The position numbers were made by a program, and so were the translations under genes. The notes beneath the pieces are model-generated. The model was not told the origin of the DNA. It searched no databases and worked only from the letters and a program-made list of their open reading frames with translations. Positions 6,791-23,964 of a stretch of DNA of 25,377 nucleotides are shown here, piece after piece. Numbering within the stretch: position 1 is the first letter of the stretch; each line of letters begins with the position of its first letter. Source of the stretch: a virus; IMG/VR virus record IMGVR_UViG_3300020061_000024, positions 1 to 25,377 of that record; one strand, given 5' to 3'.

Positions 6791-6819
6791 GAAAAGGCCC
6801 GCACGAATGGCGGGCCTCA
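6791..6819 (-). terminator. Rho-independent-like terminator between methylase-helicase and protease genes
   Basis: On the minus strand, AGGCCCGC-CATTCGT-GCGGGCCT (8-bp stem, 7-base loop, arms 6810-6817 and 6795-6802) is followed by TTTC, and the first arm begins within the stop codon of the methylase-helicase gene. This is the most terminator-like structure in the window. It would separate the cassette from the head genes, so protease and capsid need either read-through or a promoter in the end of the large gene; I cannot point to one. Confidence 0.65.
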
Positions 6820-9800: not shown

Positions 9801-12800
9801 GAGGGGCGAACCGTGTCGACATTCCGGGCAGCGACGGGTCAACACCGCTGTACGTCCGCAGCACCAGCGAGTTGAACGTCCGGTTGTAGGTCGCGGCCAT
9901 GTCGTCGGCACGGGCAGGGTCTTCCCACACCCACTCGGCGAACCGTTCGCCCATCGCCCGGGCCTTCTCGTTCGCCGCCTCGGTCTTGACCGGGTTCAGG
10001 ACCCGCTTCTCGCCACCCTCGCCGTTGTCGACCACGTCGGTGACCCGAATGGGTCGCAGTGTCAGCAAGCTTTCAGCGATGTCGATAGCGCTACGGTCGG
10101 GAGTGCCCCACTCGGATGACGCGGCGATGGTTTTCTTGTTGCCGGAGACTGTCCACTCGGAGCCGTAGGGATTCTCGACCCGTACCGACCCGTCGCGCAG
10201 GATCTCGGTCAGGAACTGCGCGACATACTTGGGTTCGATCCAGGTGGCTCCGAGCTGGGCGCGGATCTCGGTCGCTCCCAGATCCGGCGGGAGGACCTGC
10301 TCCAACGCCTTGACGTTCAGTTCGAATTCAGGGTTTTCGGCGGCGGCCAGGCGCGCGGCGTCTAGCTTTTCGCGGACGTTGCCGGACAGGTACGCCGGCG
10401 CCGGCACCAGCTCTTTCGTGTCGGGATCGTCGTAGACGAGTTCGCCGAGTTCGCGGCGGGCGGTGTCGTTGTCGACTCCGAGGAGCCGCGCCACCTCGTC
10501 CAGCCACACGCGGCCGTTCTCGTCAAGGCTGATGTTGAGCGCGTCGGCGGGGGTGTCCGCGCCAAGTTTACGTTCGCGGGGGGCGGCGACCCTGCCGTAC
10601 AGAATGTCGGCCTTGCTGGTGGTGCCCTGTGCCGGGTCGTAGTTCTCCAGGCCTTTGACCGCCGCTGCGTACGGATCCTCACGGAACCCGCCCTGTGCCG
10701 GATGCCGCCGACCCATGATCGGTTCGCCGGTTTCGGGGTTGGTTTTGCCGGTGCGGGTCGCCGTGTACCGGTTGATCGGCCCGTACTCGGCGACGTAGCC
10801 GTCATAGGCGTCGTTGAGTTCCGCCCGGAGCCGGCCCATCTTTTCGGTGTCGTCCGCGTTGGCCGACTCTTCGTCGAGGAGCGCGAGCTCGACGTCGCGG
10901 AGGTGCAGCAGGGCGCGCAGTTCGGCGGCCTGGGCCTTCGGCGGCGTGAATGGCTTCGCGGTGGCGCCCCGGACCTGGCTGAACGTGCCGTCGGGAAGGG
11001 CGCGGATGTAGCCGTCGGGTTGCTGTTCGCTGAGCGGGATGAGGTCCGGTTCGGTACGGGACTCCCCGTCGGCTGCGGTCATGGTCAGGCCGTTGGCCTT
11101 CGCCCGGCCCACGATCTTGTCCAGGGCATCGCGCAGGGCAGGGCCGGCGTCGGAGTCGCCGTCAACGGTGAGGTCGTTGGCGTAGTGCATACCGCCCAGG
11201 GCTAGCTTGCCGAGCACCAGGTCGGGGTGCTCGTGGAAGACTTCGTTGATGGCGACCTGTGTCCCGTTGACGTCGACGGGGCGGCTCTGCTCGAACGGGA
11301 GCCCGGCCGGGGCCGCGCCCGGTTCGCGGCGGCGAAAGACCAGCAGGTCCGTGACGACTGCGGTGCCGGCGGCTCGTTGGTGCGCACCTGACGGCAGCCG
11401 GACGGCTCCGACGAGGTCGCCGAGTTCGGCCATCTCGCGGCGGGCGGCCGGGTTGCGGGAGTCCAATGTGTAGCGGGAGGTGAGCACCGCCACCAGACCG
11501 CCCGGGCGGGTCAGGTGCAACGACTTCAAAATGAAGTGGTTGTGGATGCTGTGCTTGCCCTTGTTGTGGCGTGGGTCTGCGAGGCGGATCCCTTCGGCGA
11601 AGGGCACGTTGCCGACAGTGACGTCGAAGGTGCCGTCGTCGAGGCGGGTGTCGGCGAACGACTCGGCTCGCACCTGCGCGTTCGGGTACAGGGCCTGTGA
11701 GATGGCGGCCGTGGTGGGGTCGAGTTCCACTCCGACCATGTGGGCGCCGTCGGGTGCCCGGCCCATGAAGTTCCCTGAGCCGGATCCTGGTTCGAGGACC
11801 CGTCCGCCGTCGAAGCCAAGTTTGCCGACGGCGTCCCACATGGCGTCGACATAGTTGGCGTCGGTGTAGTGGGCGTTGAGAATGGAGCGGTTCGCGGCGG
11901 CGTACTCCTGCTCGCTCAGCAACTCCTTCAGCTCACGCTGTGCCGGGCCCCACTTCCGGTCCCACTCCTTCGGGTTGGCAGGGTTGGTGTCGAACACCTT
12001 CGGGAGCGCACCCCACCCGGACCAGCGGGCAAGCGCTGATTGCTCGTCGGCGGTGGCGGGCCGACCCTCGGACTGGATACGACGCAACGTGCGCAACGCA
12101 TCCATGTTGGCGCGTAGCCTCGCCATCTCCCCGGATGGGGCAAGGTCGCCCTGCCCGGCCGGGCGGAACACCGGCGCTACATCGGGTCCTCGTCTCCCTC
12201 CGCCCTGGGCAGGGTCTCCCGTAGCACCTGTTCCTCCGCCATCAGCCGAGCCCAGTTCAGCCGGCCGATCCTCTTCATAAACGTCTCGCCCGGCGGTGCC
12301 GTCCCCTCGTGGTCCGGGGTCAGCTCCGCTATCCAATTGCTTATCTGCTCCCCCAGGTTCGTGAAGAACGTCTCCCGGTCGGGCATCGCCTGGTACTCCA
12401 CTGGCCGGCACTTCGCCCAGTGCGTCTGCGCCAAGTCTCCGTAGCGATTCATCTGCATCCGCCGCCTTCTTGTGCTCGACCAGCCGATCCACGAGGTCGG
12501 CTTTCTTGCCAGTCTTCGGCAAACCTGCCTCGGCGAGCAAGCCCTTCAGGTCGGTCACCTTCAACGCCGCGAACCCGGCTCGGAGGTCGTCCCGCTTGTC
12601 CCGCTTCACGTGCCCGACCAGCCGGTCCACGATGTCGGCCTTCTTGCCGCTCTTCGGCAGCCCGGCGTGGCCGAGGACTGCCTTCAGCTGGGGCATCTTC
12701 AGCGCCGCGAACCCGGGCCGCGGGTCGTCCCGCCCGGCCGCCGCGTCGAGGATCCCCTGCAACACATCCGGCGACCAGCCCCCGGGGCTTTTCACCCACC

Positions 12801-13341
12801 GGCCACCGTCGGCGCCGCCCGGGTCGCGCAGCTGCTCCTTCCAGTGGTCGCTTTTGTGGTCGCTCTTGGTGCCGGAGCGCCCGCCCGCGGTGGGTCCGTG
12901 CCCGAAAACCTTGAAGTACCACGCCCCGGCCGTCTTGTGCGCCAGGAGCTCATTACCGTCCATGTGCTTGAGGAGATGGTGATACAGAGCCGTGTACGGG
13001 TGTGGGCCATCCGCCCACTTGGCGAGACCTTCGACGGATTCCGTCCAGTAATGCTTGAGTCCCTCGCCGCCCGGGTGAGTGTCCTCACCGGCGATGCGCT
13101 CCCAGGACTCGTCCCAACCACGCTCACCGGGATACGCCTCACCGTTGGATTCCCACCGGACACCGCGGTCACCGTCGATCGGCCGCCGATGGTCCAAGGT
13201 GTTTGCCCAGACCGCATCCGGCATGCCCTGCGGATACGCCCCACAGGAGGTGACCGTGCCCGTGACGACCCACGACCGGAGGTGTAGGCACGTGGAGCAC
13301 TGGGACACGTCGCGGGCGAGGAGGGACAGTGGCTGGCTCAA
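6817..13341 (-). CDS. giant zinc-ribbon/SAP/N6-adenine methylase/SNF2 helicase polyvalent protein (DarB-like)
   Basis: About 2174 aa from TTG 13341, which has AAGGGAGG nine bases upstream. The frame stays open to 13401, but starts there lie at or inside a hairpin and lack a Shine-Dalgarno. Order: Cys residues 15, 18 and 33 with CSTCLHL and CGAYPQGMPD (zinc-ribbon-like); a KHYWTESVEGLAKWADGP module about 96-150; the shared RDPGG-GGRW tag 167-183; two SAP-like DNA-binding repeats 205-292 (SGKKADIVDRL, TGKKADLVDRL); a Gly/Asp-rich linker 293-405; an N6-adenine methylase with motif I VLEPGSGSGNF at 515-525 and GNVPF at 577-581; an SNF2-type helicase with Walker A HEVGAGKT 1201-1208, DEAH 1379-1382, TATP 1427-1430 and QQREGRIIRQ 1734-1743; and a helical C-terminus. 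P1 DarB, an injected antirestriction protein, has a similar methylase-helicase plan. The linker is overlapped by a nested gene, so the ORF may be a fusion of two genes or be expressed as two products. Confidence 0.9.
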   Translation of the reverse strand: MSQPLSLLARDVSQCSTCLHLRSWVVTGTVTSCGAYPQGMPDAVWANTLDHRRPIDGDRGVRWESNGEAYPGERGWDESWERIAGEDTHPGGEGLKHYWTESVEGLAKWADGPHPYTALYHHLLKHMDGNELLAHKTAGAWYFKVFGHGPTAGGRSGTKSDHKSDHWKEQLRDPGGADGGRWVKSPGGWSPDVLQGILDAAAGRDDPRPGFAALKMPQLKAVLGHAGLPKSGKKADIVDRLVGHVKRDKRDDLRAGFAALKVTDLKGLLAEAGLPKTGKKADLVDRLVEHKKAADADESLRRLGADALGEVPASGVPGDARPGDVLHEPGGADKQLDSGADPGPRGDGTAGRDVYEEDRPAELGSADGGGTGATGDPAQGGGRRGPDVAPVFRPAGQGDLAPSGEMARLRANMDALRTLRRIQSEGRPATADEQSALARWSGWGALPKVFDTNPANPKEWDRKWGPAQRELKELLSEQEYAAANRSILNAHYTDANYVDAMWDAVGKLGFDGGRVLEPGSGSGNFMGRAPDGAHMVGVELDPTTAAISQALYPNAQVRAESFADTRLDDGTFDVTVGNVPFAEGIRLADPRHNKGKHSIHNHFILKSLHLTRPGGLVAVLTSRYTLDSRNPAARREMAELGDLVGAVRLPSGAHQRAAGTAVVTDLLVFRRREPGAAPAGLPFEQSRPVDVNGTQVAINEVFHEHPDLVLGKLALGGMHYANDLTVDGDSDAGPALRDALDKIVGRAKANGLTMTAADGESRTEPDLIPLSEQQPDGYIRALPDGTFSQVRGATAKPFTPPKAQAAELRALLHLRDVELALLDEESANADDTEKMGRLRAELNDAYDGYVAEYGPINRYTATRTGKTNPETGEPIMGRRHPAQGGFREDPYAAAVKGLENYDPAQGTTSKADILYGRVAAPRERKLGADTPADALNISLDENGRVWLDEVARLLGVDNDTARRELGELVYDDPDTKELVPAPAYLSGNVREKLDAARLAAAENPEFELNVKALEQVLPPDLGATEIRAQLGATWIEPKYVAQFLTEILRDGSVRVENPYGSEWTVSGNKKTIAASSEWGTPDRSAIDIAESLLTLRPIRVTDVVDNGEGGEKRVLNPVKTEAANEKARAMGERFAEWVWEDPARADDMAATYNRTFNSLVLRTYSGVDPSLPGMSTRFAPHPHVKAAVARIIAEPSVGLWHEVGAGKTAVMTIGAMELRRLGLARKPAIVVPNHMLEQFRNEFLQIYPQARILAAGSDDLTVTKTRNGRREFIAHAATGNWDAVIITKDAFKSIPLSAEAQEAFLLDELKVLDEAIDRARTAARHAGYGKDKQAKEKTVKQIEAAKQKAEVRIKANIAKAKKDPGITFELTGIDYLLIDEAHNYKNLRRTSAIEGMGIPGNGIATDLHMKIGHLRQRNPHHVVTLATATPIANSMGEAHTMMKFLRPDLLESLRITDFDSFAAQFGTVVTGVEPAPEGGWRIKSRFAKFVNVPELLRPWGIAGDVKTAEDLEHIVKPPKLAKRPKDGERLPEVVVVPPSEELKNLMAELGVRAKAIRTRGGKPEKGDDNMLNITREGRAGAFDLRLLGRSTPERSKVDVAAERIAEIWQENRDRVYPVVGKPGELSPTPGALQIVFADLGTPKPGGAEEGGSGFDLYEDLRSKLVAQGIPRERIRFIHEAKSDKEKVELFAAANDGRISVLVGSTGKMGTGANIQWRAVAMHHLDVPWRPADVQQREGRIIRQKNQNPEVRVLRYVTERSFDDYNWKTVARKAKFISQLMRGKLDVREIDDIGDAALTADEAAALADGNELLIDHYQAEAEVSRLERLERAHDNDHRANRFKISEAGKTITRAERGIAAVDAAIARRVDTRKDAFRMTVNGVEYDNRGEATAALRERLQALGTSFYGRRDLGEVGGFTIRVERDSYASGIQLGLVDVPESATVLGRAEILDGDLAIRLENTLRNLESVRARDVATIEAARHTTEEAQARLAVPFNGDALRAAREHFTDLDEAIRVQAQHDQEVKALAPEPTPVAPTSVAAPDPTIVAKLKEQFAAMPDPAKAGDTAAAEARKEHKTPGPVAIKRLPPDRQAEATAVIEATRALAENNAVIENYREYIKLIDGVLAGGSLAQELVDRLGQERNTARLGIHLAEDLLDLLTEALDNAVFAWQQPLT
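12177..12458 (-). CDS. nested small protein, 93 aa, in another frame inside the methylase-helicase linker
   Basis: Starts at ATG 12458 with AAGAAGG about six bases upstream (a second ATG is two codons on) and ends at TAG 12177. The product begins MQMNRYGDLAQTHWAKCRPV and continues with RETFFTNLGEQISNWIAEL and RIGRLNWARLMAEEQVLRET, a balanced helical protein with three Trp residues. By hand count 81 of its 93 codons end in G or C, against about 45% for the long frame over the same DNA, so the nested frame carries the coding signature. Small proteins of the form 'Y...A...W......Y..I.D...FF..LGE' are, as far as I recall, often encoded just before actinobacterial phage or element methylase-helicases. 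Six bases after its stop, GTG 12171 could start the methylase-helicase on its own. Function unknown. Confidence 0.75.
   Translation of the reverse strand: MQMNRYGDLAQTHWAKCRPVEYQAMPDRETFFTNLGEQISNWIAELTPDHEGTAPPGETFMKRIGRLNWARLMAEEQVLRETLPRAEGDEDPM
12793..12843 (-). repeat. tag motif copy: WKEQLRDPGGADGGRWV (methylase-helicase protein)
   Basis: Copy of the cassette-wide motif, followed by the helix SPDVLQGILDAAAG. The DNA at 12820-12840 matches 20 of 21 bases with the copies at 19270 and 20179. Confidence 0.8.
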
Positions 13342-13350
13342 CGGCGCGCG

Positions 13351-13358
13351 CCTCCCTT
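13351..13358 (-). promoter_or_regulatory. ribosome binding site supporting the TTG start of the methylase-helicase gene
   Basis: AAGGGAGG on the minus strand, nine bases before TTG 13341. No comparable site precedes the alternative GTG 13401 or ATG 13389. Confidence 0.65.
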
Positions 13359-13390
13359 CGGAGATTGTCGGCGGGCGCGACGGGGGCATA

Positions 13391-13424
13391 CGTAAGGGCA
13401 CCGCGCCGTCGCGATGCCCTTACG
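13391..13424 (-). other. hairpin in the leader of the methylase-helicase gene
   Basis: CGTAAGGGCA (13391-13400) pairs perfectly with TGCCCTTACG (13415-13424). Inside, after one mismatch, CGCG pairs with CGCG around CCGT, giving 14 pairs in all. It lies in the 121-base gap after the 65-aa gene and upstream of the preferred TTG start. There is no T-run. Possible roles are a terminator, an mRNA processing site or translational control. Confidence 0.55.
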
Positions 13425-13462
13425 AGAGAAGATCTGTTTGAGTTGGTGAGACCGTTGTGTGG

Positions 13463-13660
13463 TCAGCTTTCTTGTGCCTTCGCCCACGCCTTGCCCTTGT
13501 CGAAGTCGAAGTCGGCTTCGGTGATGCCGTCGGCGTCGTCGGTCACGACGCTTGTCACCCAGGAGCCGTTGCCGTCTTCGTCCTCCAGGTAGATTGCGCC
13601 CGGCTCCGGGCTCGGACTGTCCGGATTCTTGACCCTCTTGAGTGGCTTGAAGCTGTCCAT
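13463..13660 (-). CDS. small acidic protein, 65 aa
   Basis: ATG 13660 has GGGAGG six bases upstream and begins one base after the stop of the ParB-like gene; the frame is open to 13693 but that start lacks this support. The protein begins MDSFKPLKRVKNPDSPSPEP, continues with a short strand region (GAIYLEDEDGNGSWVTSVVT) and an acidic stretch (DDADGITEADFDFDKG), and ends in KAWAKAQES. No family recognised. Position between two polyvalent genes suggests an accessory or cargo protein of the cassette. A hairpin follows it. High acidity could mean a protein-binding or DNA-mimicking role, but that is speculation. Confidence 0.75.
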   Translation of the reverse strand: MDSFKPLKRVKNPDSPSPEPGAIYLEDEDGNGSWVTSVVTDDADGITEADFDFDKGKAWAKAQES

Positions 13661-13661
13661 G

Positions 13662-15116
13662 TCATCCCTCCCTATCGGTAGCCAGTCCCTCAAATTCCGC
13701 GAAGTCCATCACGATGCCGTCCGGGTTCTCGGGGGTCCCGAGAATGTCGTCGATGCTGGCGTCGATCCGCATCACCTTCACGTCGAGTGTCCCACCCCGC
13801 GCGATGCTAGCCAGCGAGGCGCCCGCCCAGCGGTGATGCCCGTCGACAACCGCCCATTCGTCGCCCTGCCGGCCGACGATCATCACACCGGACTCCAACC
13901 AACCGCCGTCGCGCATGAAGCCGTACAGTTTCGCGACCTTCGGCGCGTTCAGCTCGGACTGTGATGCGACCAGCTGGCGGGGGTCCATGGTGCCGTACTC
14001 GAACTTGACACCCTTGTCGGCAAGGAACTGTTCGAAGTCCTCCATGGTCCTGCCCTTGGCGGTGTCGCCTTCTTTCCCGAAACCGGTCGGTAGTTGCGGC
14101 ATCGTGTCGCGCGGCCTGTCCCGCAGGTGCCGCTGGAACAGGTTGCCGTTGCCGGCACCGTCGACCTGCAAGTTGGCGAGGTTGAACGGTTCCGGCTGGC
14201 CGGTTTTGATCGCCTGCATCAGCCCGTCAACCTGAGCCGAGGCGATAGTGGTCTTGTTGCCGCCAGCGAGTTGCAGCATCGCCTTCCGCGCCTGCGGGTC
14301 CCCACCGCCGTGAATTCTCGGTTTGACCAGGTCGTTTAGCAGTTGCTTCGCGATTTCGTCACGGTCCGCGCCCGGCCGCACCTTGAGGCCGCGCAGCTTC
14401 GCCACCTTACGCAGGACCGGCTTGTCGAAGCCGTCGAACGGGTCGCCCTTATGATCGCCGTTCAGCCACTTCGCGATCTTGTAGACAAGGCCGGCGATCG
14501 AGGGCTTAAACTTGCCGCCGAGCTTAGGTGTACCTTTCGGCCAGCGGGGATGCTTCTCCGGGTCGAACACGGGGGCGTCCCGGATGAACAGGTCGTAGAG
14601 CGCCAGTGCCCGCTCAGCGTCCCCGCCTGCGTTGAGGCGGTCGATCTCCTCCAACGCATCCAACAACGCCTGCGAATCCTCGTCCAACCCGTTGTCGTCA
14701 TCGTGGTCGTCATTAGGGCCGTCATCGGCGTCGGCTGGTGCGTCGTCCAACGCCGCGAGGAGCTGCTGCGCGGCGCGTACGTTTACCGTCGCTGGCGACT
14801 GCGGCACGCCGTCGGCGGGAAGCAACCCCCACCGGCGAAGCAGGACCGGCAGGTCGTCGACCCGAAGGTAGCGGCCCACAGGACGCAGATCGTCGGCGCT
14901 CACAGCAGGGACTCCCATCCTGGGGGGTGGCAATTCGGTTCCTGCCCACAGGGGTGGGCGCGCTTCGATGGACTCGACGAGGCGTTGCACTCCGGCGGGA
15001 AGGTCGGTCCAGTCGGCGGCGTGTTCCGCCGCCTCGACGATGAGCCGCCGCTCCACGACGGAGACATCCCTGGTCCCGACCGCAGCGCCGAGTCGACGCG
15101 ACAGTTCAGGAGACAC
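13662..15116 (-). CDS. ParB-like polyvalent protein, 484 aa
   Basis: GTG 15116 has AGGAGG six bases upstream and overlaps the 2027-aa gene's stop by 11 bases; the frame is open to 15260 but the extra part is Ser/Thr/Pro-rich shadow of the upstream gene. Residues 1-60 are helical. An acidic low-complexity stretch follows (about 124-147, many Asp). Residues 184-205 carry the cassette tag in its HPR form (EKHPRWPKGTPKLGGKFKPS), followed by the helix IAGLVYKIAKWLNG. Residues 232-265 (LRKVAKLRGLKV, DRDEIAKQLLNDLV) resemble an SAP/HeH helix pair. The C-terminal domain has the ParB/sulfiredoxin-fold signature AVVDGHHRWAGASLA at 422-436, with strands on both sides. ParB-like domains bind nucleotides or DNA; in phage polyvalent proteins they occur as nuclease- or NTPase-like modules. 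Enzyme activity here is unproven. Confidence 0.85.
   Translation of the reverse strand: MSPELSRRLGAAVGTRDVSVVERRLIVEAAEHAADWTDLPAGVQRLVESIEARPPLWAGTELPPPRMGVPAVSADDLRPVGRYLRVDDLPVLLRRWGLLPADGVPQSPATVNVRAAQQLLAALDDAPADADDGPNDDHDDDNGLDEDSQALLDALEEIDRLNAGGDAERALALYDLFIRDAPVFDPEKHPRWPKGTPKLGGKFKPSIAGLVYKIAKWLNGDHKGDPFDGFDKPVLRKVAKLRGLKVRPGADRDEIAKQLLNDLVKPRIHGGGDPQARKAMLQLAGGNKTTIASAQVDGLMQAIKTGQPEPFNLANLQVDGAGNGNLFQRHLRDRPRDTMPQLPTGFGKEGDTAKGRTMEDFEQFLADKGVKFEYGTMDPRQLVASQSELNAPKVAKLYGFMRDGGWLESGVMIVGRQGDEWAVVDGHHRWAGASLASIARGGTLDVKVMRIDASIDDILGTPENPDGIVMDFAEFEGLATDREG
13667..13672 (-). promoter_or_regulatory. ribosome binding site of the 65-aa protein
   Basis: GGGAGG on the minus strand, six bases before ATG 13660, inside the end of the ParB-like gene. 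It decides the short start. Confidence 0.7.
14502..14567 (-). repeat. tag motif copy, HPR form, in the ParB-like protein
   Basis: FDPEKHPRWPKGTPKLGGKF followed by the amphipathic helix IAGLVYKIAKWLNG. It matches the copy at 17320-17391 most closely (both have HP-x-x-PKGTP-GG/KGG). Confidence 0.75.
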
Positions 15117-18100
15117 CGGAAGCCTCCTCAACGGTGAGTGCGGTTCGGTTGAGGATGACGTAGTTCTTGGTCCCGAGTCCGTTCGGCCGCGGGCCGCCGG
15201 GTTGTCCGATGTCGAGGACGATCGCGTCGTAGCCGCGGGCGGCAGCGTATCTGCCGACATCCCCGAATGCCTTGGCGGCGTTCGATCCGGGCTTTCCGGT
15301 TTCCATCATCGTGTAACGGAACGCCTCATCAGAGATGCTCTTGTAATCGATGACCTTCGCGTCCTTGTGTAGGACGGCCCGGGCGATGCCGTGGTCATCG
15401 TCGTCGGTGTAGTTGCGGGCATCGTCGTGATTGTCGGTGAAGTAGTAGCCGTTGCCGTAGAGCCCGTTCCCGAAGTACGCCGAACCGGATCGAAGCTGCT
15501 CAGTCTTTTCCGCGCCGGTTATGCTGCTGCCGTCCCTCTGGTCAGCCCCACGGAACACCTCGGTGTGCCCGGTGAGCACCAACTGGTCAATGGTCGCGGC
15601 CGAGGCAACGGTCGGTGTGCGGTCGAAACCCTGCATGGCTGCGATGACCGACAGTGCCTGGTCTGCTGAACGGTGCTGGTCCCGTTGGGCGGCCACCTGG
15701 TCAGCTAGGCCCGCCGCGTCGACCGCAATCAGATCCCGTCCTACCGCAGGCCCTGGCATCTTGCCCTGAGCCTTGAGTGCCAGGACTGTCTCATTCACGA
15801 GCAGGCTAGCCATCTCGCGGCTGAGGCCATCAGAGACGTACATATCAATGATCTCTTCGGGAGTGTCCTCGCCGTATTCGAGTGCATCGGCGATGTCTCG
15901 TGCGTGGCCGCTTTTCAGCAGGGCTGGATCGCTGTAGTCCACGCCAGGGACGACGGACGTGCGCGGTGCGACCTTCTTCGCAGCCGCCACCTTGGCGGCG
16001 ACCGCGGTGACCAGGTCGGCCTTCTTCTTCCCGCTGCCAGCGCCCAAACCCATGCGCTTCATCAAGGCCTTCAGTTCGGTGACCTTCATGCCTCGCAGCG
16101 CGTCCTCGGCGGCACTGCGGTCGTTGAGCTCACCCAACTGGGCGACGATCGCGTCGAGATCGGAGGCCGCCGGTGCAGTTGCCTTGGCTACTGCGGGTGC
16201 CGCCGCCGTGCCCTTCTTGGCTGGCGCTGCCTTCTTCGCCGTCTTGGCCGGAGCGGTTTGGATCTTCAACAGGTGCCGGGGCTGGTCACCGATAACGACC
16301 GCCGCGTCATTGTCACGAGCGGTCAGTGTCTTGGTGTTCAGCTCCTCCATGAGGAGGACGTCAGGCCGCTCGATCATTCGATCAAGCACCGCGTCCACGG
16401 TCGCCTTGTCGACACCGCCGAGCCGCTCCCGAAGGTCGGCCAGCTGGACCCAACCCAACGTCCCCGGCCGGTCGGCTATGAGATCGCTATATGCCTCGCG
16501 AATCCGATTCTCGACCTGCGCCTCGCGCACCGCCGGGTCATCCGACAGGCCACCAGCATCGGCCGGCCGCAAACTTGGAGCGGGTGACATCGGTCGGCCG
16601 CTGAGTGTTGAGTTGTACGCGGTGGCGATCTGCTGCCGTACGCGCTGCGCGAGCGGAGATGCGCCGTCGCCGTGTAGGGCGTCATCGGCAAGCGCTTCGG
16701 CAACCATGGCCTCACGCGATCGCAGGGCATAATCGCCGAGCTGTGCCTTGATGCCTGCCTGGACCTGTCCTGGGTCGCCGTGGTCGAGACCGGCGTCGCC
16801 GAGATACGCCTTGACCGCCACGTCGACATGCTCATGACCGCGGCCGCCAGTCATCGCATCGACAGCAGATCCGAACAGCGACGCCGCCACATACGCAAAG
16901 TCGTTGCCGGGCCGTCCATGTGCCCCACCGCGACGCAACCTCTGAAGGTTGGACGTACGACTCATGGCCGTGGACTCGTCGAGCAGGACCTCGACCGCGC
17001 CCGACCTCGGGTGGACCGTCGCCGTGCCCCACACATCCAAACCGTCGGCCGGCTTGCCGACCGAAACCTTGTCCAGGCGGGTCTCTGGCCACCGTTCAGC
17101 ACCGCGGAGCAAGCCTTCGGCATACTCCTTGGCCGTAATGAGGTTGGTCTTCTGGCCCAGGTCCACGTCGACCGGCCGCCCCAGCGTCCGGCGCAGTTCG
17201 ATCCGCAGCCGGGTGTTGACGTCCGCCACCGACTTCAGCCTGCTGATCTCCGGCCGTACCTTCACCGGACCACGGCCGTGAAGGTTGGCCAGCTTCCCCA
17301 AAGCTTCGCCGACATGCGGCATCCACTCGCCGCCCTTGCCGCCGGGAGTCCCCTTCGGATACTTCGGGTGCAGCTTCTTGTCGTACGCGCGGGTTGCGCT
17401 GTCCGGTTCGGCGTCATCGTCGGTGAGTAGCGAAAGCGCGAGTGTCGCCTGGAATCGGTTGAACTCTTCGGCACTTAGTTCGACCTGCGCGGCCTCGACG
17501 GAGTCGCCGGCTTCAAGGGTGCGGGATCCATCCGAGTGGCGGGTCGACCAGTCGAAGTATCTGCCGTCGTCGAAGGTCACCGCTCCGTCGTCGAAGAGAC
17601 CGTCTTCGTCTCGCTCGACCGCAAGGTCGACGAGCACCCGTTGGTCAGGGAGTGACTCCCGAATGCGGGTCAGTGCCAACGCCCGCGAGAGTCGCTGCTC
17701 TTCGTCGTCGTCGAGCGGCAAGACTACGGACTCCTTGCCGCCGCTTACCTCGTAGGAACGACAACCGTCCTCGCCGGTGCTCGACCAGTCGATGTATCGG
17801 CTGTCATCGAAGGAGATGCCCCCGCCATCATCCTCGCTACCCAGGGCCTTCAACGCCGCTGCGATACCAGCACCGGAGCCGACGAACTTGCCGTCCTCTG
17901 AGTTGCGGGGATGGTGCGACTCGAAGTCGACGTCGCGCTGGGCGCGCTGCTGGTTCGAGTACGCTCGGGCAGGCTCAGCGGCTTCGTCCGCAGCCAGGTG
18001 CCGGCCGCGACCGTTCCACTCGGCCTCGTCAATGACGGCGTCGAGCGCCTCAACCATCTCGGACAGATCACCGGCCGGGATGGTGACGAGCCGCCCGGCG

Positions 18101-21100
18101 TCGCCGATCTTGGCGATGGTGACGGTGCCGTCCGACTTGGCCTCAACGTCGTACGTGTGGAGGAGCTTGCGGCTGCCAGCAGGTCCGCCTTCGACACCGG
18201 CGCCGAGGTCACGCAACTCCGCCAAGGTGTCGCGGGCGATCTTTGCCTGCTCAATGTTGAGGAGCAGGTCCCAGGTTCCGCCGCCGTCGGAGGTGAGTGC
18301 GATGTCGTGGTCGGTGAAGAGGGTCACATCGTAGCTGCCGCCTACGCTGACGGTGTCTTCTTCTTCGGGGTCGAAATCGGCGACCTCGCGGAGGGTGTCC
18401 GCGAAGTTGGAGGCGTCGTTTGAGTCCATGTGCCAGACGTCGAAGTCGGTTTCAAGCCGATCCGGGTCGGGCTCCTTAACACCGTCCTTCGGCCAACCGA
18501 TCAGGATTTCGCTGTCCGGGTTGTATCCGACCAAGACGTCCAGATCGGGGATGACCTCATAGTCGACCAGTCGCATCTCCCGCTCGGCCGGTGACTCGTC
18601 GGCGAAGTCGGGGTCTTCGGGGTCGTCGATGTAGTGGTCGATGTCGGCATACATGCGGTCGATCACGTCGGCAACGGCCCGCGCGGAGTCCGGGTCAAGA
18701 TAGTCCGCGTGGACAGCACGGCCAGGAGACTTTTCGCCCTCGAGGTGCGGGGCGTCCGAGGTGACGACGATGTTCTCGCCCCAGTACCGCCCGACGTAGG
18801 TGTCGGGCTGCAACAAGGGGCTCTCCTCGGTGACGAGGAGTCCCTGGGTGTCGAAGAGTTGCCGCAGTGTGCGGAATGACGAGTGAACGAACGTCCCATC
18901 GTCTGGGCTGCGGGGGTGCAACTGCTCAAAGTCGGCGTCACGCCCGAAGCCAGACTGGTGCCCAGCGACTGCCGCCGCGACCTTCGCGAACTTCGCAGCC
19001 TTCTTGGCTTTGAGTCCCTTCGTCAGCAGGTCTGCCAGCTTGGCTGCCGCCAGCACCTCACCGCCAGGCACGAACATCAGCCCTAGTGACACCACATCCA
19101 AGGGCGAGACGGTCAGGTCGAGCGGTGTTCCCTTGTAATCAACGGAGAAGTGCGCGCCCTTGATGCCGAGACCGTGGTAATGGACCTTGTCTGCCTTGCC
19201 CTTGAGCCAGCCCCCGATCTTGCCCACAGTCTCAGCTGCACCCGGAACGCCGTCCGTCCATTTGCCGTCCGGGTCGCGCAGCTGGTCCTTGTCGAACTTC
19301 CGCGCCGACCTTGTCCCAGCGAGAGCCAGCATCTTGTCGAGCAGGCGGACGACCTTCGCGGATTCGGCTGCGTATAGATGGGCGCGAGCCTCGGCGAACT
19401 CGACGTCTTCGGATGTCATCCCGTCCGGGACAACCCACAGGTCGGTCTGCGGCCCGGACTCCGGCTCGTCAACAACGACCCTGTAATGGACGCGGCCCGA
19501 CTCGGCCGGAATCGAGCCGACTGCTACCTCGACGTGGGGCAGATCAGGATTGACGGTCCCGTCTGGAATCGCATCCCACGCAGCCTCAACCTCAGCCAGC
19601 GCGACCTTCGCCCGTTTGTTCGCGTCGGCGAGGATGTCACGCAACTGCGCAGCGGCGGCCGAATCGAGCTTGGCGGTATAGCCGCTCGCGAAGACCTCGC
19701 TCGTGTCAAGGTCTTCGATCTCGCCGAGCCGCTTCTCAATCTCATCTTGCCGGGCGATGATGCGGTCAAGCTCGGCGTCGTCCTCGACCGAAATCGGCGG
19801 GCCGTCGTGCAGCGAAGCGACATACTTGGCGGAGAGCGGGTCCCGCTGCTCCCAGAGGCGTGCATCCTCGTCTTCGAGTCGCGTGCGTTCATCCTGGATC
19901 TTCTGCCGATCGGCGTTCAATTCGGCGAGGGACTCCTGACCGCGCCACGGTCCGGCCTCATCGTCGCGGCTGCCGAACATCCCGTCGCCGAGGCCTATGC
20001 GAAGGGCCCGCTGGCCGTCCTTGCCGGTCACAGCCAGCCGGACAGTGCCGTCGTCGGCTGACACTTTGTCCGATCCGAGAAGCTCCTCGCCGTCATCGAG
20101 GCGGATCTTCCCAGCCAGTTTGAGTGCATCCTTCAACGCGCCGCCAGCCGTGACCCACTGCCCGCCGCCTTCGCCGCCCGGGTCGCGCAGCTGGTCCTTA
20201 TCGAACTTGCGTGTGTTGCCAGGGTGAGAGCGGGTCGTATCGAAGGTCTCGTTGAGGTCGGCCAGGGCATCCACGCTCGTATCGCCAGCGACGTCCCTGG
20301 GCTCGTAGCTCGGCCGCTGTGCGTCGTCGTCATCGTCGTAGTCCTCGGCCTCGGCCTCGCGGATCATCTCCTCGACCTGGTCGGCCAGCGCGTGGGCGTC
20401 ATCCTGGCTGAAGTCCCGCAGCACCCCCCGCTTGTCCTCGCCGGCGTCGACCGTGAGGACGACACGGCCACCGTCGTGGGCCTGGACGTGGTGCTTGTCG
20501 CCGACTGCGCTCTCATCGGCGAGAACCCCGAACGTCTCGGCCAGTTCGTCCATGGCGCGACCAGCCGACATGAACTGTCCGCCGTCTTCTCCGCCTGGAT
20601 CGCGGGGCTGCGTCTTCCAGTCCCTCGTTGCCGATACGCCCGTGAGCGGAATGTCTGTGATCACACCACCGAACGCGACTCGTACGCGATCGAAGGTGAT
20701 CGAGCCGACGCGGTCAACCAGGTCCGCGACCCGGGATGCGTCACCAGAGAAGACGAGGGTTACGTGCGCTGCGAACGGCTGCCGCGGTGCTGGTAGGTCT
20801 GCCCCGTAGTCCTCGACGGCGGCCGCGGTGGCGTTGTACGCGCGGGCGACGTCGTCTCCACCCACCAGCCCGACGATCGCCGGTTCGTCGCCGGCCGGGT
20901 TGAAGATGGCAAGCGAGAACAGGTCTCCCGTGACGGGACCGAAGCTGGCGAAGTACGCACGCACAAGCTCAACCAGGTGCGCCTGCGACGGCCCGCCGAA
21001 GTCAACCGCCTTGCCCAGGTACCGCAACGTCAGGTGCAGGCGGTCGACCGGCTCCCCTCCGGGTACAGCCAGACGCTTCGTGTCCTCATCGGACGGCACC

Positions 21101-21189
21101 AGCGCAACCATGGCGCCGGTGTGGACCTCGGCCGCACGGGCAAGCCGTTCGAACACATCAAGGGAGCGGAGGAGAGCGTCGACTGACAC
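15106..21189 (-). CDS. 2027-aa polyvalent protein: 2H phosphoesterase to ADP-ribosyltransferase
   Basis: GTG 21189 is preceded by AGGAG; M26 is the main alternative start. Order: 2H phosphoesterase about 26-186 with HLT (52-54) and HVT (142-144); tag 1 (189-210); tag 2 (327-349); coiled coil about 420-495; tag 3 (630-647); hydrophobic helices about 696-742; tag 4 (749-770); an acidic region with repeating strand-helix units; tag 5 (1085-1105); two alike FDD-x-RY-x-DW units at about 1125-1176 and 1204-1255; tag 6 (1267-1290); a domain resembling a phage metallopeptidase that has lost HExxH (SLFGS, 1437-1441); winged helix about 1558-1643; Ala/Lys linker; SAP-like pair 1698-1736; and an ADP-ribosyltransferase-like domain about 1865-2018 (VFRG, FGNGLYGNGYYFTDN, NYVILNRTAL). 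2H enzymes cut cyclic or 2'-phosphodiester bonds; ART domains transfer ADP-ribose from NAD. Probably carried in the head and injected; that is inferred from family knowledge and gene position. Confidence 0.9.
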   Translation of the reverse strand: MSVDALLRSLDVFERLARAAEVHTGAMVALVPSDEDTKRLAVPGGEPVDRLHLTLRYLGKAVDFGGPSQAHLVELVRAYFASFGPVTGDLFSLAIFNPAGDEPAIVGLVGGDDVARAYNATAAAVEDYGADLPAPRQPFAAHVTLVFSGDASRVADLVDRVGSITFDRVRVAFGGVITDIPLTGVSATRDWKTQPRDPGGEDGGQFMSAGRAMDELAETFGVLADESAVGDKHHVQAHDGGRVVLTVDAGEDKRGVLRDFSQDDAHALADQVEEMIREAEAEDYDDDDDAQRPSYEPRDVAGDTSVDALADLNETFDTTRSHPGNTRKFDKDQLRDPGGEGGGQWVTAGGALKDALKLAGKIRLDDGEELLGSDKVSADDGTVRLAVTGKDGQRALRIGLGDGMFGSRDDEAGPWRGQESLAELNADRQKIQDERTRLEDEDARLWEQRDPLSAKYVASLHDGPPISVEDDAELDRIIARQDEIEKRLGEIEDLDTSEVFASGYTAKLDSAAAAQLRDILADANKRAKVALAEVEAAWDAIPDGTVNPDLPHVEVAVGSIPAESGRVHYRVVVDEPESGPQTDLWVVPDGMTSEDVEFAEARAHLYAAESAKVVRLLDKMLALAGTRSARKFDKDQLRDPDGKWTDGVPGAAETVGKIGGWLKGKADKVHYHGLGIKGAHFSVDYKGTPLDLTVSPLDVVSLGLMFVPGGEVLAAAKLADLLTKGLKAKKAAKFAKVAAAVAGHQSGFGRDADFEQLHPRSPDDGTFVHSSFRTLRQLFDTQGLLVTEESPLLQPDTYVGRYWGENIVVTSDAPHLEGEKSPGRAVHADYLDPDSARAVADVIDRMYADIDHYIDDPEDPDFADESPAEREMRLVDYEVIPDLDVLVGYNPDSEILIGWPKDGVKEPDPDRLETDFDVWHMDSNDASNFADTLREVADFDPEEEDTVSVGGSYDVTLFTDHDIALTSDGGGTWDLLLNIEQAKIARDTLAELRDLGAGVEGGPAGSRKLLHTYDVEAKSDGTVTIAKIGDAGRLVTIPAGDLSEMVEALDAVIDEAEWNGRGRHLAADEAAEPARAYSNQQRAQRDVDFESHHPRNSEDGKFVGSGAGIAAALKALGSEDDGGGISFDDSRYIDWSSTGEDGCRSYEVSGGKESVVLPLDDDEEQRLSRALALTRIRESLPDQRVLVDLAVERDEDGLFDDGAVTFDDGRYFDWSTRHSDGSRTLEAGDSVEAAQVELSAEEFNRFQATLALSLLTDDDAEPDSATRAYDKKLHPKYPKGTPGGKGGEWMPHVGEALGKLANLHGRGPVKVRPEISRLKSVADVNTRLRIELRRTLGRPVDVDLGQKTNLITAKEYAEGLLRGAERWPETRLDKVSVGKPADGLDVWGTATVHPRSGAVEVLLDESTAMSRTSNLQRLRRGGAHGRPGNDFAYVAASLFGSAVDAMTGGRGHEHVDVAVKAYLGDAGLDHGDPGQVQAGIKAQLGDYALRSREAMVAEALADDALHGDGASPLAQRVRQQIATAYNSTLSGRPMSPAPSLRPADAGGLSDDPAVREAQVENRIREAYSDLIADRPGTLGWVQLADLRERLGGVDKATVDAVLDRMIERPDVLLMEELNTKTLTARDNDAAVVIGDQPRHLLKIQTAPAKTAKKAAPAKKGTAAAPAVAKATAPAASDLDAIVAQLGELNDRSAAEDALRGMKVTELKALMKRMGLGAGSGKKKADLVTAVAAKVAAAKKVAPRTSVVPGVDYSDPALLKSGHARDIADALEYGEDTPEEIIDMYVSDGLSREMASLLVNETVLALKAQGKMPGPAVGRDLIAVDAAGLADQVAAQRDQHRSADQALSVIAAMQGFDRTPTVASAATIDQLVLTGHTEVFRGADQRDGSSITGAEKTEQLRSGSAYFGNGLYGNGYYFTDNHDDARNYTDDDDHGIARAVLHKDAKVIDYKSISDEAFRYTMMETGKPGSNAAKAFGDVGRYAAARGYDAIVLDIGQPGGPRPNGLGTKNYVILNRTALTVEEASGVS
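15123..15128 (-). promoter_or_regulatory. ribosome binding site of the ParB-like gene
   Basis: AGGAGG on the minus strand, six bases before GTG 15116, within the last codons of the 2027-aa gene. Confidence 0.7.
17320..17391 (-). repeat. tag motif copy 6 in the 2027-aa protein (HPK form)
   Basis: RAYDKKLHPKYPKGTPGGKG then GEWM, followed by the helix VGEALGKLANLHG. Closest relative is the copy in the ParB-like protein. Confidence 0.75.
17875..17937 (-). repeat. tag motif copy 5 in the 2027-aa protein (HPR form)
   Basis: RDVDFESHHPRNSEDGKFVG followed by the helix GIAAALKALG. Pairs with copy 4 (RDADFEQLHPRSPDDGTFV). Confidence 0.75.
18880..18945 (-). repeat. tag motif copy 4 in the 2027-aa protein (HPR form)
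   Basis: RDADFEQLHPRSPDDGTFVH followed by the helix SFRTLRQLFDTQG. Confidence 0.75.
19249..19302 (-). repeat. tag motif copy 3 in the 2027-aa protein (RDP form)
   Basis: RKFDKDQLRDPDGKWTDG followed by the helix AAETVGKIGGWLKG. At DNA level 19270-19299 matches 20179-20208 at 29 of 30 bases. Confidence 0.85.
20143..20211 (-). repeat. tag motif copy 2 in the 2027-aa protein (RDP form)
   Basis: RKFDKDQLRDPGGEGGGQWV followed by the helix ALKDALKLAG. Contains the second arm of the 29/30-base direct repeat (20179-20208). Confidence 0.85.
20560..20625 (-). repeat. tag motif copy 1 in the 2027-aa protein (RDP form)
   Basis: RDWKTQPRDPGGEDGGQFMS followed by the helix AMDELAETFG. It directly follows the 2H phosphoesterase domain. 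Confidence 0.8.
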
Positions 21190-21278
21190 GGCTCACCTAC
21201 TCCTACCGAGGAAGCGAACCGGTCGCGACGAGCTGGGTCAGAACAAGAACAGGAACGGGCCAGGCACGAGGAGTGCCG

Positions 21279-21524
21279 TTAAAGGATGGCCGACTTGCGC
21301 GCCGCCGCCAACCGCTGGTATGCCTCGGTGGTCAGCCGCGAGTCGGCGTTGACCGCGTCCCAGGAGTCCGGGTCTGGCGCCGCGCCGATGTCGCCCTGGT
21401 ACGCCTGCGCGAGGGACGCCCTGGGTTGCTGCCTCGGCCAGGCACGGCGACGGAAGTCGGCCTCGGCCTCCATCAAGGTCATGGTCCCAGCGGCCAGCCG
21501 GTCAAGCACCTCAGCGACGGTCAC
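21279..21524 (-). CDS. hypothetical protein, 81 aa, between zeta-like and 2027-aa genes
   Basis: GTG 21524 overlaps the stop of the zeta-like gene (GTGA), and TAA ends it at 21279. The N-terminal half is helical (MTVAEVLDRLAAGTMTLMEA, then EADFRRRAWP). The second half holds LAQAYQGDIGAAPDPDSWDA and a C-terminal helix TEAYQRLAAARKSAIL. Small proteins with an 'L..G..T..E...DF..R.WP' start are familiar beside phage portal and MuF-like genes, but I do not know their function. Tight coupling to a toxin-like kinase makes an antidote or partner role possible. The 89-base gap after it contains only the ribosome binding region of the next gene and a weak hairpin. Confidence 0.75.
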   Translation of the reverse strand: MTVAEVLDRLAAGTMTLMEAEADFRRRAWPRQQPRASLAQAYQGDIGAAPDPDSWDAVNADSRLTTEAYQRLAAARKSAIL

Positions 21525-22483
21525 CGCCCCACCCCCTTGTCGACCAGCCTAGGCGCACGACCCCACACCGAGTTGTCGAACATGGACCAGTCGTCAAACA
21601 TACTGCGCATGCCCAAAAAGGCATCCTTGTTCATGGTGGTGCCGTGAGGGGTCAGGTACGACCGGATCACGTCAGGCGGCACGAACCGGCCGCCCAGCCC
21701 GCTGCCTGCCCGGAGCTCATCAGCGCCCTGCCGGTAACGCCCAAGTGCACGCTCCACCGAAACCTCAACCGGAATGTCGACAAACACACCCGAAATGTCG
21801 CGGTAGCCGTTCGCCCGCATCGCATTCACCCTGGTCGAGATCTCCTCGGGCGAGCCCATGGTGATATCCCAAATCACGTTCCTCCGGTCACGGTACGCCA
21901 TGTCCGCCATGAGCTCGGCGATGCGCCGCGACTCGGCGTGTACCAGCGCAGCACGTTCCATCGGCGACAAGTCGGGGTGGCCAGGCACCTCCGGCACCAG
22001 TCCCCGGCGAGCCATCTCTTCCTTCACATCGTCCGGGTTGATCGTGAAGTACTGTCCGGGGTCTATTCCCGCGTGCTCGCGCAAAACCGAAGTTTTTCCG
22101 GCGCCTCCAAGTCCGCCGGACATGACCGCGCGACCGTCACGCGGAACGTGCGACGCCTGGGCGTACATGTCGGCGGCGATCTCGCGGTGGATCGCGTCAC
22201 GTTCCGGATCCCAGACGCCGTTCCCGTCGGAATACAAGACGTCAGAGCCGTGGGTGGTGAAGGCTCCCTTCATCACCTCTGCGACCCGTTCCACCCGCGC
22301 GTTGAACTCCACGTCCGTCATTGGCCTGCCCGGGGTGTGGGTAGCCGGGTCGCCGAAGAGTTTCTTCACCGCGGCGACCGGATCGCCAATCCATTGACCG
22401 CTATGGGGGTCACGTGGCTGGTTCTTGTCGAACTTGCGGATCAGCGCGACGATGTCGTCGGCTGCCCGTTGCAGGTCAGTCAT
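21521..22483 (-). CDS. zeta-toxin-like P-loop kinase with N-terminal tag motif, 320 aa
   Basis: ATG 22483 lies in an ATGA overlap with the portal stop; the frame is open to 22561 but only over the portal gene. Residues 17-31 carry the cassette tag (KFDKNQPRDPHSGQW), followed by the helix PVAAVKKLFG. The zeta-like domain spans about 117-285: Walker A GGLGGAGKTS at 123-132, FTINPDDVKEEM near 146-157, a helix with HAESRRIAELMADMAYRD, the strand NVIWDITM near 202-209, and FVDIPVEVSVERALGRYRQ with arginines placed like the catalytic ones of zeta kinases. Zeta toxins phosphorylate UDP-N-acetylglucosamine and block cell wall synthesis; related phage proteins may phosphorylate other targets. No epsilon-type antitoxin is seen, unless the 81-aa neighbour serves. 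The tag suggests it belongs to the same cargo set as the large proteins. Confidence 0.88.
   Translation of the reverse strand: MTDLQRAADDIVALIRKFDKNQPRDPHSGQWIGDPVAAVKKLFGDPATHTPGRPMTDVEFNARVERVAEVMKGAFTTHGSDVLYSDGNGVWDPERDAIHREIAADMYAQASHVPRDGRAVMSGGLGGAGKTSVLREHAGIDPGQYFTINPDDVKEEMARRGLVPEVPGHPDLSPMERAALVHAESRRIAELMADMAYRDRRNVIWDITMGSPEEISTRVNAMRANGYRDISGVFVDIPVEVSVERALGRYRQGADELRAGSGLGGRFVPPDVIRSYLTPHGTTMNKDAFLGMRSMFDDWSMFDNSVWGRAPRLVDKGVGR
22391..22435 (-). repeat. tag motif copy: KFDKNQPRDPHSGQW (zeta-like protein)
   Basis: Located at residues 17-31, in front of the helix PVAAVKKLFG. Shares KFDK-x-Q with copies 2 and 3 of the 2027-aa protein. Confidence 0.85.
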
Positions 22484-23964
22484 CGCACTGACTGTCCGTT
22501 GAGTCGCTGAGACCCGAACGCTGCGAGGAGCTGCCGGGCCTGCATGTGGTCCACTTCCCACACCCGGGATGCGTTGGGTTTGTTGACCGGGTTCTTCTCG
22601 TCATCCGGCGGGACCTTCACCGGGACACCCTTCGCGTCAACCTTCGGCGGTCCGCCCTGAACCGCGGTCGGCGGCACACCAGGCTGCGCACCGCCCGGAG
22701 CCTCAAGCTTCCCGTCCTTATCAACCTGCGCCTTGTTCAGCGGCAGCCATGGCCGCTCACCCCAGTTGACCGGCGGGAACCCGTTCCGTTCCCGCCACTC
22801 GTTGATCGTGAGGAGCCCACGGTCGATCATCTGCTGGTCCCGGGACCACACCTCAGTCGCCGACTCCTGCAACGCAGGGATCTGGGAAAAGTCGTACTCA
22901 CAGTGATCCGGATACGCGCGGGCGCCCTTGTCCCGCGCGAACTTGGGCAAATACTGCTCGCGGATCTCCTCCGCCTTGAACTGCGCGTCCGGCTTCAACG
23001 CCCGCGACCACTCGACCCGCTCCAGCGCGTTCGCGTCACCAAGGCTGGCCTGCTCCAGGTCATTGTGGAGGACGGCCTGCATCCCGTACGCGCGGCACAC
23101 CTGCCTAAACGTCATGTTCAGTCCCGCGACGAACTCCGCGTCCTTCGGCGACATCGACATCTGCGCGAACTTCGCCTCGTACCGCAACACAGCCCACCGG
23201 TGAGCGTTCTTAGGCCCGGTGAACTTGCTCTTCAAGTGCCGCTCAAGGTCGTCGGCCTGGTCTTTCGAGAACGTCATCTTGTCGTTCGGCGGCACAATCA
23301 GACCGGCGAGGTTCATGCCCTGCTCAAAAAGCTTGCCGTTCGCGGTCATCATCGCCCTCGCCGTATCGGCCGCCAGGCGGGCCGCCCCAAGCGGACTCAT
23401 CGCCGAGAACTCATCGATGGGGTTCGGGTAGCGGAACCACACCACCTCGTCTGAGCTGAAATGGATCGGTGCGCCGCCCATGTGTGGCCAGTACCAGTAG
23501 CCGTCGAGGTACTCGGTTTCGTGCCCGACCGGCCGCATCCGCGACGCCTTCAACCACCAGATCTCGCCCAACGGGCTCTTCGCCGACGGCGGCTCCAGCG
23601 CCCAGTACGTCTCACCCCAGATACCCATGGACAGTTCATCCATGCGCGCCAATCTTGAGGTCGTCCAAAATTCGTTAATGTATCGGTGGAGTTCGACGGG
23701 CCGGCCGGAGTCGAGCTCCTTCTTCTTCGTCCCGCGGCCGGAGTAGAACTTGAGGTCCAGGCCGGCGAGCAGCCGGGCCCGCGCTGAAACGACCGAGAAC
23801 ACATCGTTCGACGTCGCTAGATAATCCTCATAGTCCTCTGGCGAGAACCTCGAATCGTCGTGGCCCCAGCGCGTCTCAAACGGCAGAACAGTGCCGACAC
23901 CAACAGGCCACGACCGAGTAAGAGCCTGCTCGCGGCGAGCGGCCACCCGGTCGATGATGGCCAT
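22480..23964 (-). CDS. portal protein (HK97 gp3-like family)
   Basis: A 494-aa protein, normal length for the family. ATG 23964 shares one base with the previous stop (TGATG). The N-terminal region has NDVFSVVSARARLLAGLDLK, typical of the start of the portal clip/wing domain. Next come GIWGETYWALEPP, the strand VVWFRYPNPIDEFSAMSPLG, then the helix RAMMTANGKLFEQGMNLAGL, all in the order seen in HK97-type portals. Later parts include FVAGLNMTFRQVCRAYGMQA and NEWRERNGFPPVNWGERPWL, the usual C-terminal 'IN..R...G.PP' signature. The C-terminus is Pro/Gly-rich and variable. Twelve copies form the portal ring through which DNA enters and leaves the head. The next gene is coupled by an ATGA overlap. 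Confidence 0.93.
   Translation of the reverse strand: MAIIDRVAARREQALTRSWPVGVGTVLPFETRWGHDDSRFSPEDYEDYLATSNDVFSVVSARARLLAGLDLKFYSGRGTKKKELDSGRPVELHRYINEFWTTSRLARMDELSMGIWGETYWALEPPSAKSPLGEIWWLKASRMRPVGHETEYLDGYWYWPHMGGAPIHFSSDEVVWFRYPNPIDEFSAMSPLGAARLAADTARAMMTANGKLFEQGMNLAGLIVPPNDKMTFSKDQADDLERHLKSKFTGPKNAHRWAVLRYEAKFAQMSMSPKDAEFVAGLNMTFRQVCRAYGMQAVLHNDLEQASLGDANALERVEWSRALKPDAQFKAEEIREQYLPKFARDKGARAYPDHCEYDFSQIPALQESATEVWSRDQQMIDRGLLTINEWRERNGFPPVNWGERPWLPLNKAQVDKDGKLEAPGGAQPGVPPTAVQGGPPKVDAKGVPVKVPPDDEKNPVNKPNASRVWEVDHMQARQLLAAFGSQRLNGQSVR

Follow-up and report, generated by a model that had tools for sequence, protein, structure and literature searches.

Four unrelated proteins of one virus record share a short signature that marks the starts of effector and toxin modules in many phages

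Results

Nine copies of a short motif in four window proteins

The stretch of DNA analysed here, the window, is a virus record of 25,377 bases (IMG/VR IMGVR_UViG_3300020061_000024). Four unrelated proteins encoded in it share a short protein motif, present in nine copies, and the same signature marks the starts of effector or toxin modules in many phages. Read from right to left, the genes of the window encode a terminase-like protein, a portal (PF04860), a zeta-like protein, the product of a short open reading frame (ORF), a 2027-residue protein, a ParB-like protein, a methylase-helicase, an S78 prohead protease and a probable capsid protein. The four motif-bearing cassette proteins and the nine copies are given below, each copy with the means by which it was recovered or assigned ("expression" being the regular expression described after the list).

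21521..22561, minus strand: zeta-toxin-like kinase protein (putative cargo); PF06414, E=2e-16; its model matches epsilon/zeta and AvrRxo1 structures
15106..21189, minus strand: 2027-residue multidomain protein with an N-terminal 2H/LigT domain, six motif copies and an ART-like C-terminus (recognised by eye; PF18760 only at E=0.12)
13662..15260, minus strand: ParB-like protein (putative cargo); name from an earlier note, no Pfam match
6817..13401, minus strand: DarB-like methylase-helicase (putative cargo)
22391..22432, minus strand: motif copy, zeta-like protein residues 44-57 (FDKNQPRDPHSGQW); also scored with profiles made without the window
20572..20619, minus strand: motif copy 1, 2027-residue protein residues 191-206 (WKTQPRDPGGEDGGQF), directly after the 2H domain; seed of the module profile
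20155..20205, minus strand: motif copy 2, 2027-residue protein residues 329-345 (FDKDQLRDPGGEGGGQW); expression and module profile
19258..19296, minus strand: motif copy 3, 2027-residue protein residues 632-644 (FDKDQLRDPDGKW); expression, and strict-copy profile at 21.2 bits
18889..18930, minus strand: motif copy 4, 2027-residue protein residues 754-767 (FEQLHPRSPDDGTF); resemblance only
17884..17925, minus strand: motif copy 5, 2027-residue protein residues 1089-1102 (FESHHPRNSEDGKF); resemblance only
17323..17385, minus strand: motif copy 6, 2027-residue protein residues 1269-1289 (YDKKLHPKYPKGTPGGKGGEW), long-loop form; form also found outside the window
14508..14567, minus strand: motif copy, ParB-like protein residues 232-251 (FDPEKHPRWPKGTPKLGGKF); expression
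12796..12843, minus strand: motif copy, methylase-helicase residues 187-202 (WKEQLRDPGGADGGRW), followed by HeH/SAP domains; expression and module profile

The nine copies are genuine. One regular expression matched nine times in the four cassette proteins and not at all in 12 further window ORFs, which were chosen by us and included the portal, protease, capsid and terminase, and 2000 shuffles of the cassette proteins gave a mean of 0.055 matches and a maximum of two. A first-pass annotation, made from the letters alone, had named the same nine copies in the same four proteins, and all were found within 12 bases of where it had placed them. Its further statement that they sit at domain boundaries was borne out where domains can be recognised: in the 2027-residue protein the 2H match ends at about residue 183 and a copy begins at 191, in the zeta-like protein the confident zeta fold begins at about residue 80 and the copy occupies 44-57, and in the methylase-helicase the HeH/SAP matches begin at 234 and the copy occupies 187-202.

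The copies are not equally close to the form common elsewhere. A profile of strict copies from outside the window clearly recovers two of the nine (21.2 and 15.7 bits). A second profile, of the module and with copy 1 as its seed, picks up copy 2 and the methylase-helicase copy as well, and the four HPR/HPK copies are recovered by neither of these two profiles. We assign these four to the family because of their resemblance, the occurrence of the long-loop form elsewhere and the presence of both forms within single ORFs (L178, L182, L051 and L117).

An amphipathic helix after the motif had also been described as part of the feature, and this did not hold as a defining or general element. Crude helix propensity over the 26 residues after the nine copies was not above that of random 26-mers from the same proteins (p=0.57), the strict family outside the window is followed by G/S/A-rich sequence, and on these two grounds the helix was rejected as a general part of the motif; the helix predicted after the zeta copy has a predicted local distance difference test score (pLDDT) below 50. 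Some RDPGG..GG[QR]W copies are indeed followed by a DALKLAGKI-like helix, and helix propensity in this group is slightly above that of the strict group (p=0.008).

By eye, the 2027-residue protein (15106-21189) seems to contain repeated small alpha/beta segments (DGxVxL...DAxxLADxLxxM) between its motif copies, and a similar segment ends a portal/MuF-like ORF of contig L002. Residues 383-529 of the ParB-like protein weakly resemble part of gp60 of Pseudomonas phage H66 (E=5e-4), a 3787-residue PLxRFG protein (L235:9505-20868) whose record states that mass spectrometry detected it in the virion. Close relatives, searched for through the portal, were not found in the viral contigs.

Form and recurrence outside the window

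The signature spans 13-20 residues and has the form [FY]DPxQPRDxxGR[FW], with a long-loop form HPR/QPRDP-G-x-GGQ[FW] beside it. A degenerate DNA pattern for [FY]Dxx[QH]PRDxxGR[FW], the strict pattern, found at least 120 stretches with 142 matches in 2.9 million viral contigs; none of the 142 contains a stop and 141 lie in frames of at least 100 codons. The codon-reversed control pattern found no stretch in the viral contigs and a backward-read control none in all 36 motif-bearing bacterial genomes, and with these null controls and the shuffle mean of 0.055 we rejected chance in GC-rich sequence as the source of the matches. Positions that the pattern leaves free are conserved across 152 non-redundant copies, with P at +2 in 123/152, T at +13 in 82/152 and G at +16 in 102/152. 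Two further patterns for the long-loop form (QPRDPGGEDGGQW, HPRYPRGTPGGLGGQF) found 24 and 5 stretches, all in open frames, and these copies mostly have an aromatic residue, not forced by the pattern, a few positions upstream. Iterated profiles over the fetched loci recovered 273 copies, against 4 in reversed proteins, and some ORFs carry several, such as the five copies in L053. The strict copies counted below number 187, made up of 140 viral copies (L041 and L108 left out) and 47 chromosomal copies.

None of the Pfam or PHROG models among the matches listed is built around the motif; phrog_38358, a family of unknown function with 86 positions, weakly overlaps it in two proteins. Searches of the PDB gave nothing convincing, and short-peptide BLAST queries other than the 22-residue query described below, which are insensitive, returned one record or none. 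No such tag was found in the open-licence literature searched, which does not show that the motif is unpublished.

Proteins that carry the motif

Carrier families were counted in 96 of the 135 viral carrier ORFs, those of 150-900 residues that were non-duplicate and within the residue limit of the scan. Long carriers are missing from the Pfam and PHROG counts because only this size range was scanned, and one ORF can match several Pfam families. Among the 96 were Phage_portal (13), Phage_portal_3 (5), a third portal family (1) and Phage_Mu_F (11); ADPrib_exo_Tox (12), ART (4), ART-PolyVal (3) and the anti-CBASS family Acb1 (3); and zeta (2), ParB_N (2), Tox-REase-5 (2), a CDI-type toxin (2) and PBECR1 (1). 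The leading PHROGs were portal, head maturation protease, head morphogenesis and minor head protein. The motif is one protein-level family, and its carriers include portal, MuF, toxin, ART, zeta, anti-CBASS and ParB proteins. DUF7178 was seen on carriers of both sets, in 3/96 viral and 2/39 chromosomal ORFs (L128, L135).

A portal-seeded search found 13 ORFs, some near-identical, that hold a PF04860-like portal region together with the motif. In L187:6531-8684 a single ORF contains two motif copies and a Peptidase_S78 prohead protease domain (E=2.3e-28), so that cargo is here fused to the protease. In the cultured phages Damien and P3.1 the motif opens a basic protein of the head operon, Damien gp10 (L126:6735-7508), wholly covered by phrog_12708, and its P3.1 homologue (L125:11992-12702), which are 257 or 236 residues long with pI 12.0 and 11.3. 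Both are annotated as capsid or head maturation protease, and both are probably not proteases.

Genome neighbourhood in viral contigs

In viral contigs the motif lies among head and packaging genes. A PF04860 portal is present in 33/50 contigs, with the motif within 5 kb of it in 15/33 (9.0 expected, P=0.014) and within 10 kb in 22/33 (15.7 expected, P=0.014). The motif occurs in 0/197 tiled ORFs of 10-kb stretches away from it in 20 contigs; the near stretches were picked for holding the motif, and their 26/137 ORFs are no test. Among the best 25 of 136 families, the near genes without the motif match terminase (TerL), head maturation protease, portal, scaffold and neck families. The far genes, of which 94/139 ORFs were scanned, match methylase, helicase, ligase, recombination, transposase, tail, tail fibre and endolysin families, and TerL, head protease, portal and scaffold are absent among the best 25 of their 85 families.

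The first-pass annotation had proposed a head-targeting tag that defines a modular cargo system. Its modular part stands: unrelated carriers, fusions to portal, MuF and prohead protease, the context of head and packaging genes and the absence from distant stretches speak for a signature of phage cargo that is modular and shared by proteins whose functions are unrelated. The helix does not stand as a part of such a tag.

Position, codon use and predicted structure

The motif nearly always precedes a C-terminal module: fewer than 60 residues lie downstream of it in 2/128 complete ORFs, against 20.9 expected, and fewer than 60 lie upstream in 38/128. For 18 of the 187 strict copies, some of them near-identical, every possible start is at most 14 codons away, and many other copies are internal; a start so close fits a tag and does not call for cleavage from an anchor. 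At the motif, synonymous codons are used much as they are elsewhere in the same ORFs (Kullback-Leibler divergence 0.000 to 0.117 bits), so selection acts on the protein, and a DNA recombination anchor was rejected on the same values. AlphaFold2 models give a weak hint that the motif lies outside the folded domain: in the zeta-like protein blocks score mostly at least 84 from about residue 81 and the motif blocks 55-64, with a small beta bridge, and in a poor model of a portal fusion (mean 58) the motif block scores 49, against 26-40 around it. The motif is weakly predicted to form a small beta-turn within a disordered linker.

Such positions would also suit an element of module junctions that has no targeting role, a conserved turn or linker or a fusion scar between exchangeable effector modules, which might help modules to fold or unfold independently and travel with toxin cassettes. 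This would account for the motif lying nearly always upstream of a module, for its presence even where the cargo is fused to a portal or MuF domain, for its occurrence on chromosomal toxin-like proteins whose C-terminal parts form 16 clusters for 29 sequences, and for the low-confidence linker in both models. A plain linker or scar would, however, hardly keep many near-fixed residues and aromatic ends across phyla, the 18/187 copies with at most 14 residues before them have little to link, and multiple internal copies remain intact within single ORFs (L053, L113). We consider a junction element unlikely.

The same fusions bear on a third possibility, that a prohead or cargo protease cuts at the motif, perhaps in addition to targeting, freeing effectors from portal or MuF anchors and splitting multi-copy chains into single effectors. 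The window genes that matter here are the following.

22480..23964, minus strand: portal protein, context, without the motif; PF04860, E=3.4e-44
5888..6766, minus strand: prohead protease S78, context, without the motif; PF04586, E=3e-5
4416..5891, minus strand: probable major capsid protein, context, without the motif; named from its position after the protease only, no Pfam match

In fusions the motif does separate portal from cargo, and in multi-copy chains it separates the modules; an S78 protease is encoded in the window and protease families occur among the neighbours. A motif of this length is long for a protease site, at most 14 residues precede it in 18/187 copies, and many chromosomal copies have no PF04860 portal near them. 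A cut site for the prohead protease, which had been offered as one option from the sequence alone, became less likely because the expected substrates in the window (capsid, protease and portal) lack the motif and some copies are already N-terminal. In phage T4 targeting and processing are joined in one sequence (excerpt of PMC9026906), and this speaks for the idea. On balance we judge a processing site rather unlikely.

Chromosomal copies in bacterial genomes

The strict pattern was also run over 84,980 bacterial and archaeal genomes (11.3 million contigs, 257 Gb) and found 50 stretches. We kept 42 loci and left out eight by eye (L137, L138, L152, L154, L156, L160, L163 and L170); the count is conservative, since L163, with C for W, later scored 41.4 bits and is probably a true copy, and the open frames of L138 and L152 contain matches to the core. 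Of the kept loci 28/42 are in what we take to be Alphaproteobacteria, and a profile census of that class found the motif in 5/289 genomes, including the already known positives G051 and G055. In the portal-distance test, which covered 37/42 loci in 36 genomes, a PF04860 portal was present somewhere in 31/36 genomes, with none in the alphaproteobacterial genomes G052 and G063.

Among the 39/47 chromosomal carriers scanned, Pfam matches were Tox-REase-5 (3), RNAse_A_bac (2), Ntox50 (1), ART (1), DUF7178 (2), portal (2) and MuF (2). A set of 31 carriers, hand-picked with portal and MuF carriers left out, resembles polymorphic toxins in that the start is conserved and the end varies. Many share an N-terminal region of about 40 residues, and 29 post-motif parts form 16 clusters. 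Of 13 N-termini tested, 9 fit the profile of the remaining ones better than did every shuffle, or every shuffle but one, out of more than 400; the other 4 do not stand out, and some of the 13 are close relatives. A longer second N-terminal region of about 90-160 residues precedes the motif in L133, L142, L144, L149, L175 and L176, and several of these regions show an LP.LD-like stretch by eye. DUF2019 (PF09450) genes adjoin three related motif-bearing proteins that are HNH-like by eye (L130, L145, L167).

These carriers raise the possibility of a general delivery signal of polymorphic toxins, recognised for example by a chaperone, an unfoldase or a secretion route, which is not specific to heads and which phages also use. 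The toxin domains of the chromosomal carriers and the N-terminal region common to many of them fit this, as do the DUF2019 genes beside three carriers, which may be an immunity family, and Imm52 in two genes flanking chromosomal loci. Strict copies are commoner per contig in the viral than in the genome collection, though, many viral carriers are fused to portal or MuF domains, and a 22-residue query, in a search that is insensitive for so short a peptide, found no match on plasmids. We hold such a general signal to be quite improbable.

Discussion

Our preferred reading, held tentatively and at a little below an even chance, is that the signature acts as a short linear docking tag by which cargo modules enter phage heads. 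The tag would stand at the N-terminal edge of each module. Some conserved part of the prohead interior or the portal vertex would bind it in the producing cell, and any tagged module would be taken in while the head assembles and would leave it together with the DNA. Packaging as such is our inference. With its six copies, the 2027-residue protein could be a chain of formerly separate tagged modules, and copies between a portal or MuF domain and the cargo would mark where the cargo was joined. Processing at the tag, as in T4, may occur and would not be required. A junction element and a processing site are real rivals to a docking tag, which fits best.

Several observations weigh against this preference. 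P1 DarB, for which a capsid signal has been measured, is without the motif by both expression and profile, and H66 gp60, a recorded virion protein, lacks it too. Seven of the nine window copies diverge from the strict form by the profile of strict copies, and a tag should be needless where cargo is fused to a portal or MuF domain. Proximity to the portal, taken alone, is only modestly significant, and HNH endonuclease, kinase, methyltransferase and tail fibre families are found among the near genes as well. Among cultured phages the 22-residue query matched only 8/50,697 records, with weak E-values of 0.3 to 9: one Nocardia phage, six Mycobacterium phage records (Damien twice) and one microvirus that is probably a chance match. 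The Nocardia and Mycobacterium matches lie in genes named capsid or head maturation protease. On chromosomes, a PF04860 portal lies within 10 kb of a strict copy in only 8/36 genomes, a count that will miss prophages, since it used a single portal family and some of the contigs are short; phage families are a minority among the 150 flanking genes scanned (of 154 ORFs), and many copies sit on toxin-like genes with no portal found nearby, which tells against use in heads only. The first-pass annotation had named matches that are mainly non-phage and away from head genes as evidence against a head tag. Overall the matches are not of that kind, with at least 120 stretches in 2.9 million viral contigs against 50 in 11.3 million bacterial and archaeal contigs; those in bacterial genomes, taken alone, largely are.

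Docking in heads could conceivably extend to the chromosomal copies. The motif would then be a head-loading address used across phyla, in cis for phage effectors and in trans for chromosomal toxin genes: bacteria, above all Alphaproteobacteria, would hold tagged orphan toxin-like genes whose products reach recipient cells inside the heads of resident prophages or gene transfer agents and attack or protect those cells. We regard this as improbable, and the involvement of gene transfer agents as speculation.

The proteins that phages carry into cells are known for few phages. If the docking-tag reading is true, injected effectors could be predicted from sequence across uncultured phages, the way in which very different enzymes join one delivery route would be explained, and a label of about 20 residues could be tried for loading proteins into the heads of laboratory phages.

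Comparison with known systems

The published systems are compared here on the basis of excerpts from the papers cited. Head-loading signals have been mapped for T4 and P1 (PMC9026906, PMC9024508). Like the motif, the T4 capsid targeting sequence (CTS) of IPIII and its relatives is short and marks head cargo on otherwise different proteins (PMC9026906). It is N-terminal and is removed by gp21, whereas the motif is often internal and repeated, stands at module starts and occurs in unrelated phages; we set the two apart by description and not by T4 sequences. The P1 DarB signal (PMC9024508) targets a methylase-helicase of the DarB type, and the DarB-like protein of the window carries the motif, at residue 187 and not N-terminally as in P1 DarB.

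PLxRFG or tail-700 (NF032893) is a named signature of very large multidomain phage proteins and a domain of 681 positions; none of the 19 motif-bearing records searched, including the window, matches it, and the controls were silent as well. In MuF polymorphic toxins (PMC5576092, PMC3482391) a head-linked N-terminus is joined to variable C-terminal toxins and the genes lie beside the portal. A MuF domain is present in 11/96 motif carriers; most carriers have no MuF match, and none was found in the window proteins scanned. The word "motif" does not occur in the main text of Jamet 2017 (PMC5576092).

The domains of the window proteins, namely 2H, ART, zeta, ParB-like and methylase-helicase, are those of the polyvalent proteins (Iyer 2017, PMC5512222; PMC9503650). 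For these proteins no common short tag is described in the excerpts of either source; fusions to portal, MuF and capsid-processing protease are reported, and packaging and injection have been predicted (PMC5512222, PMC9503650). The window has the arrangement that characterises them, with several effector domains per protein encoded between portal and protease: a 2H domain and a weak ART-like end are combined in the 2027-residue protein, and SAP, methylase and helicase domains in another.

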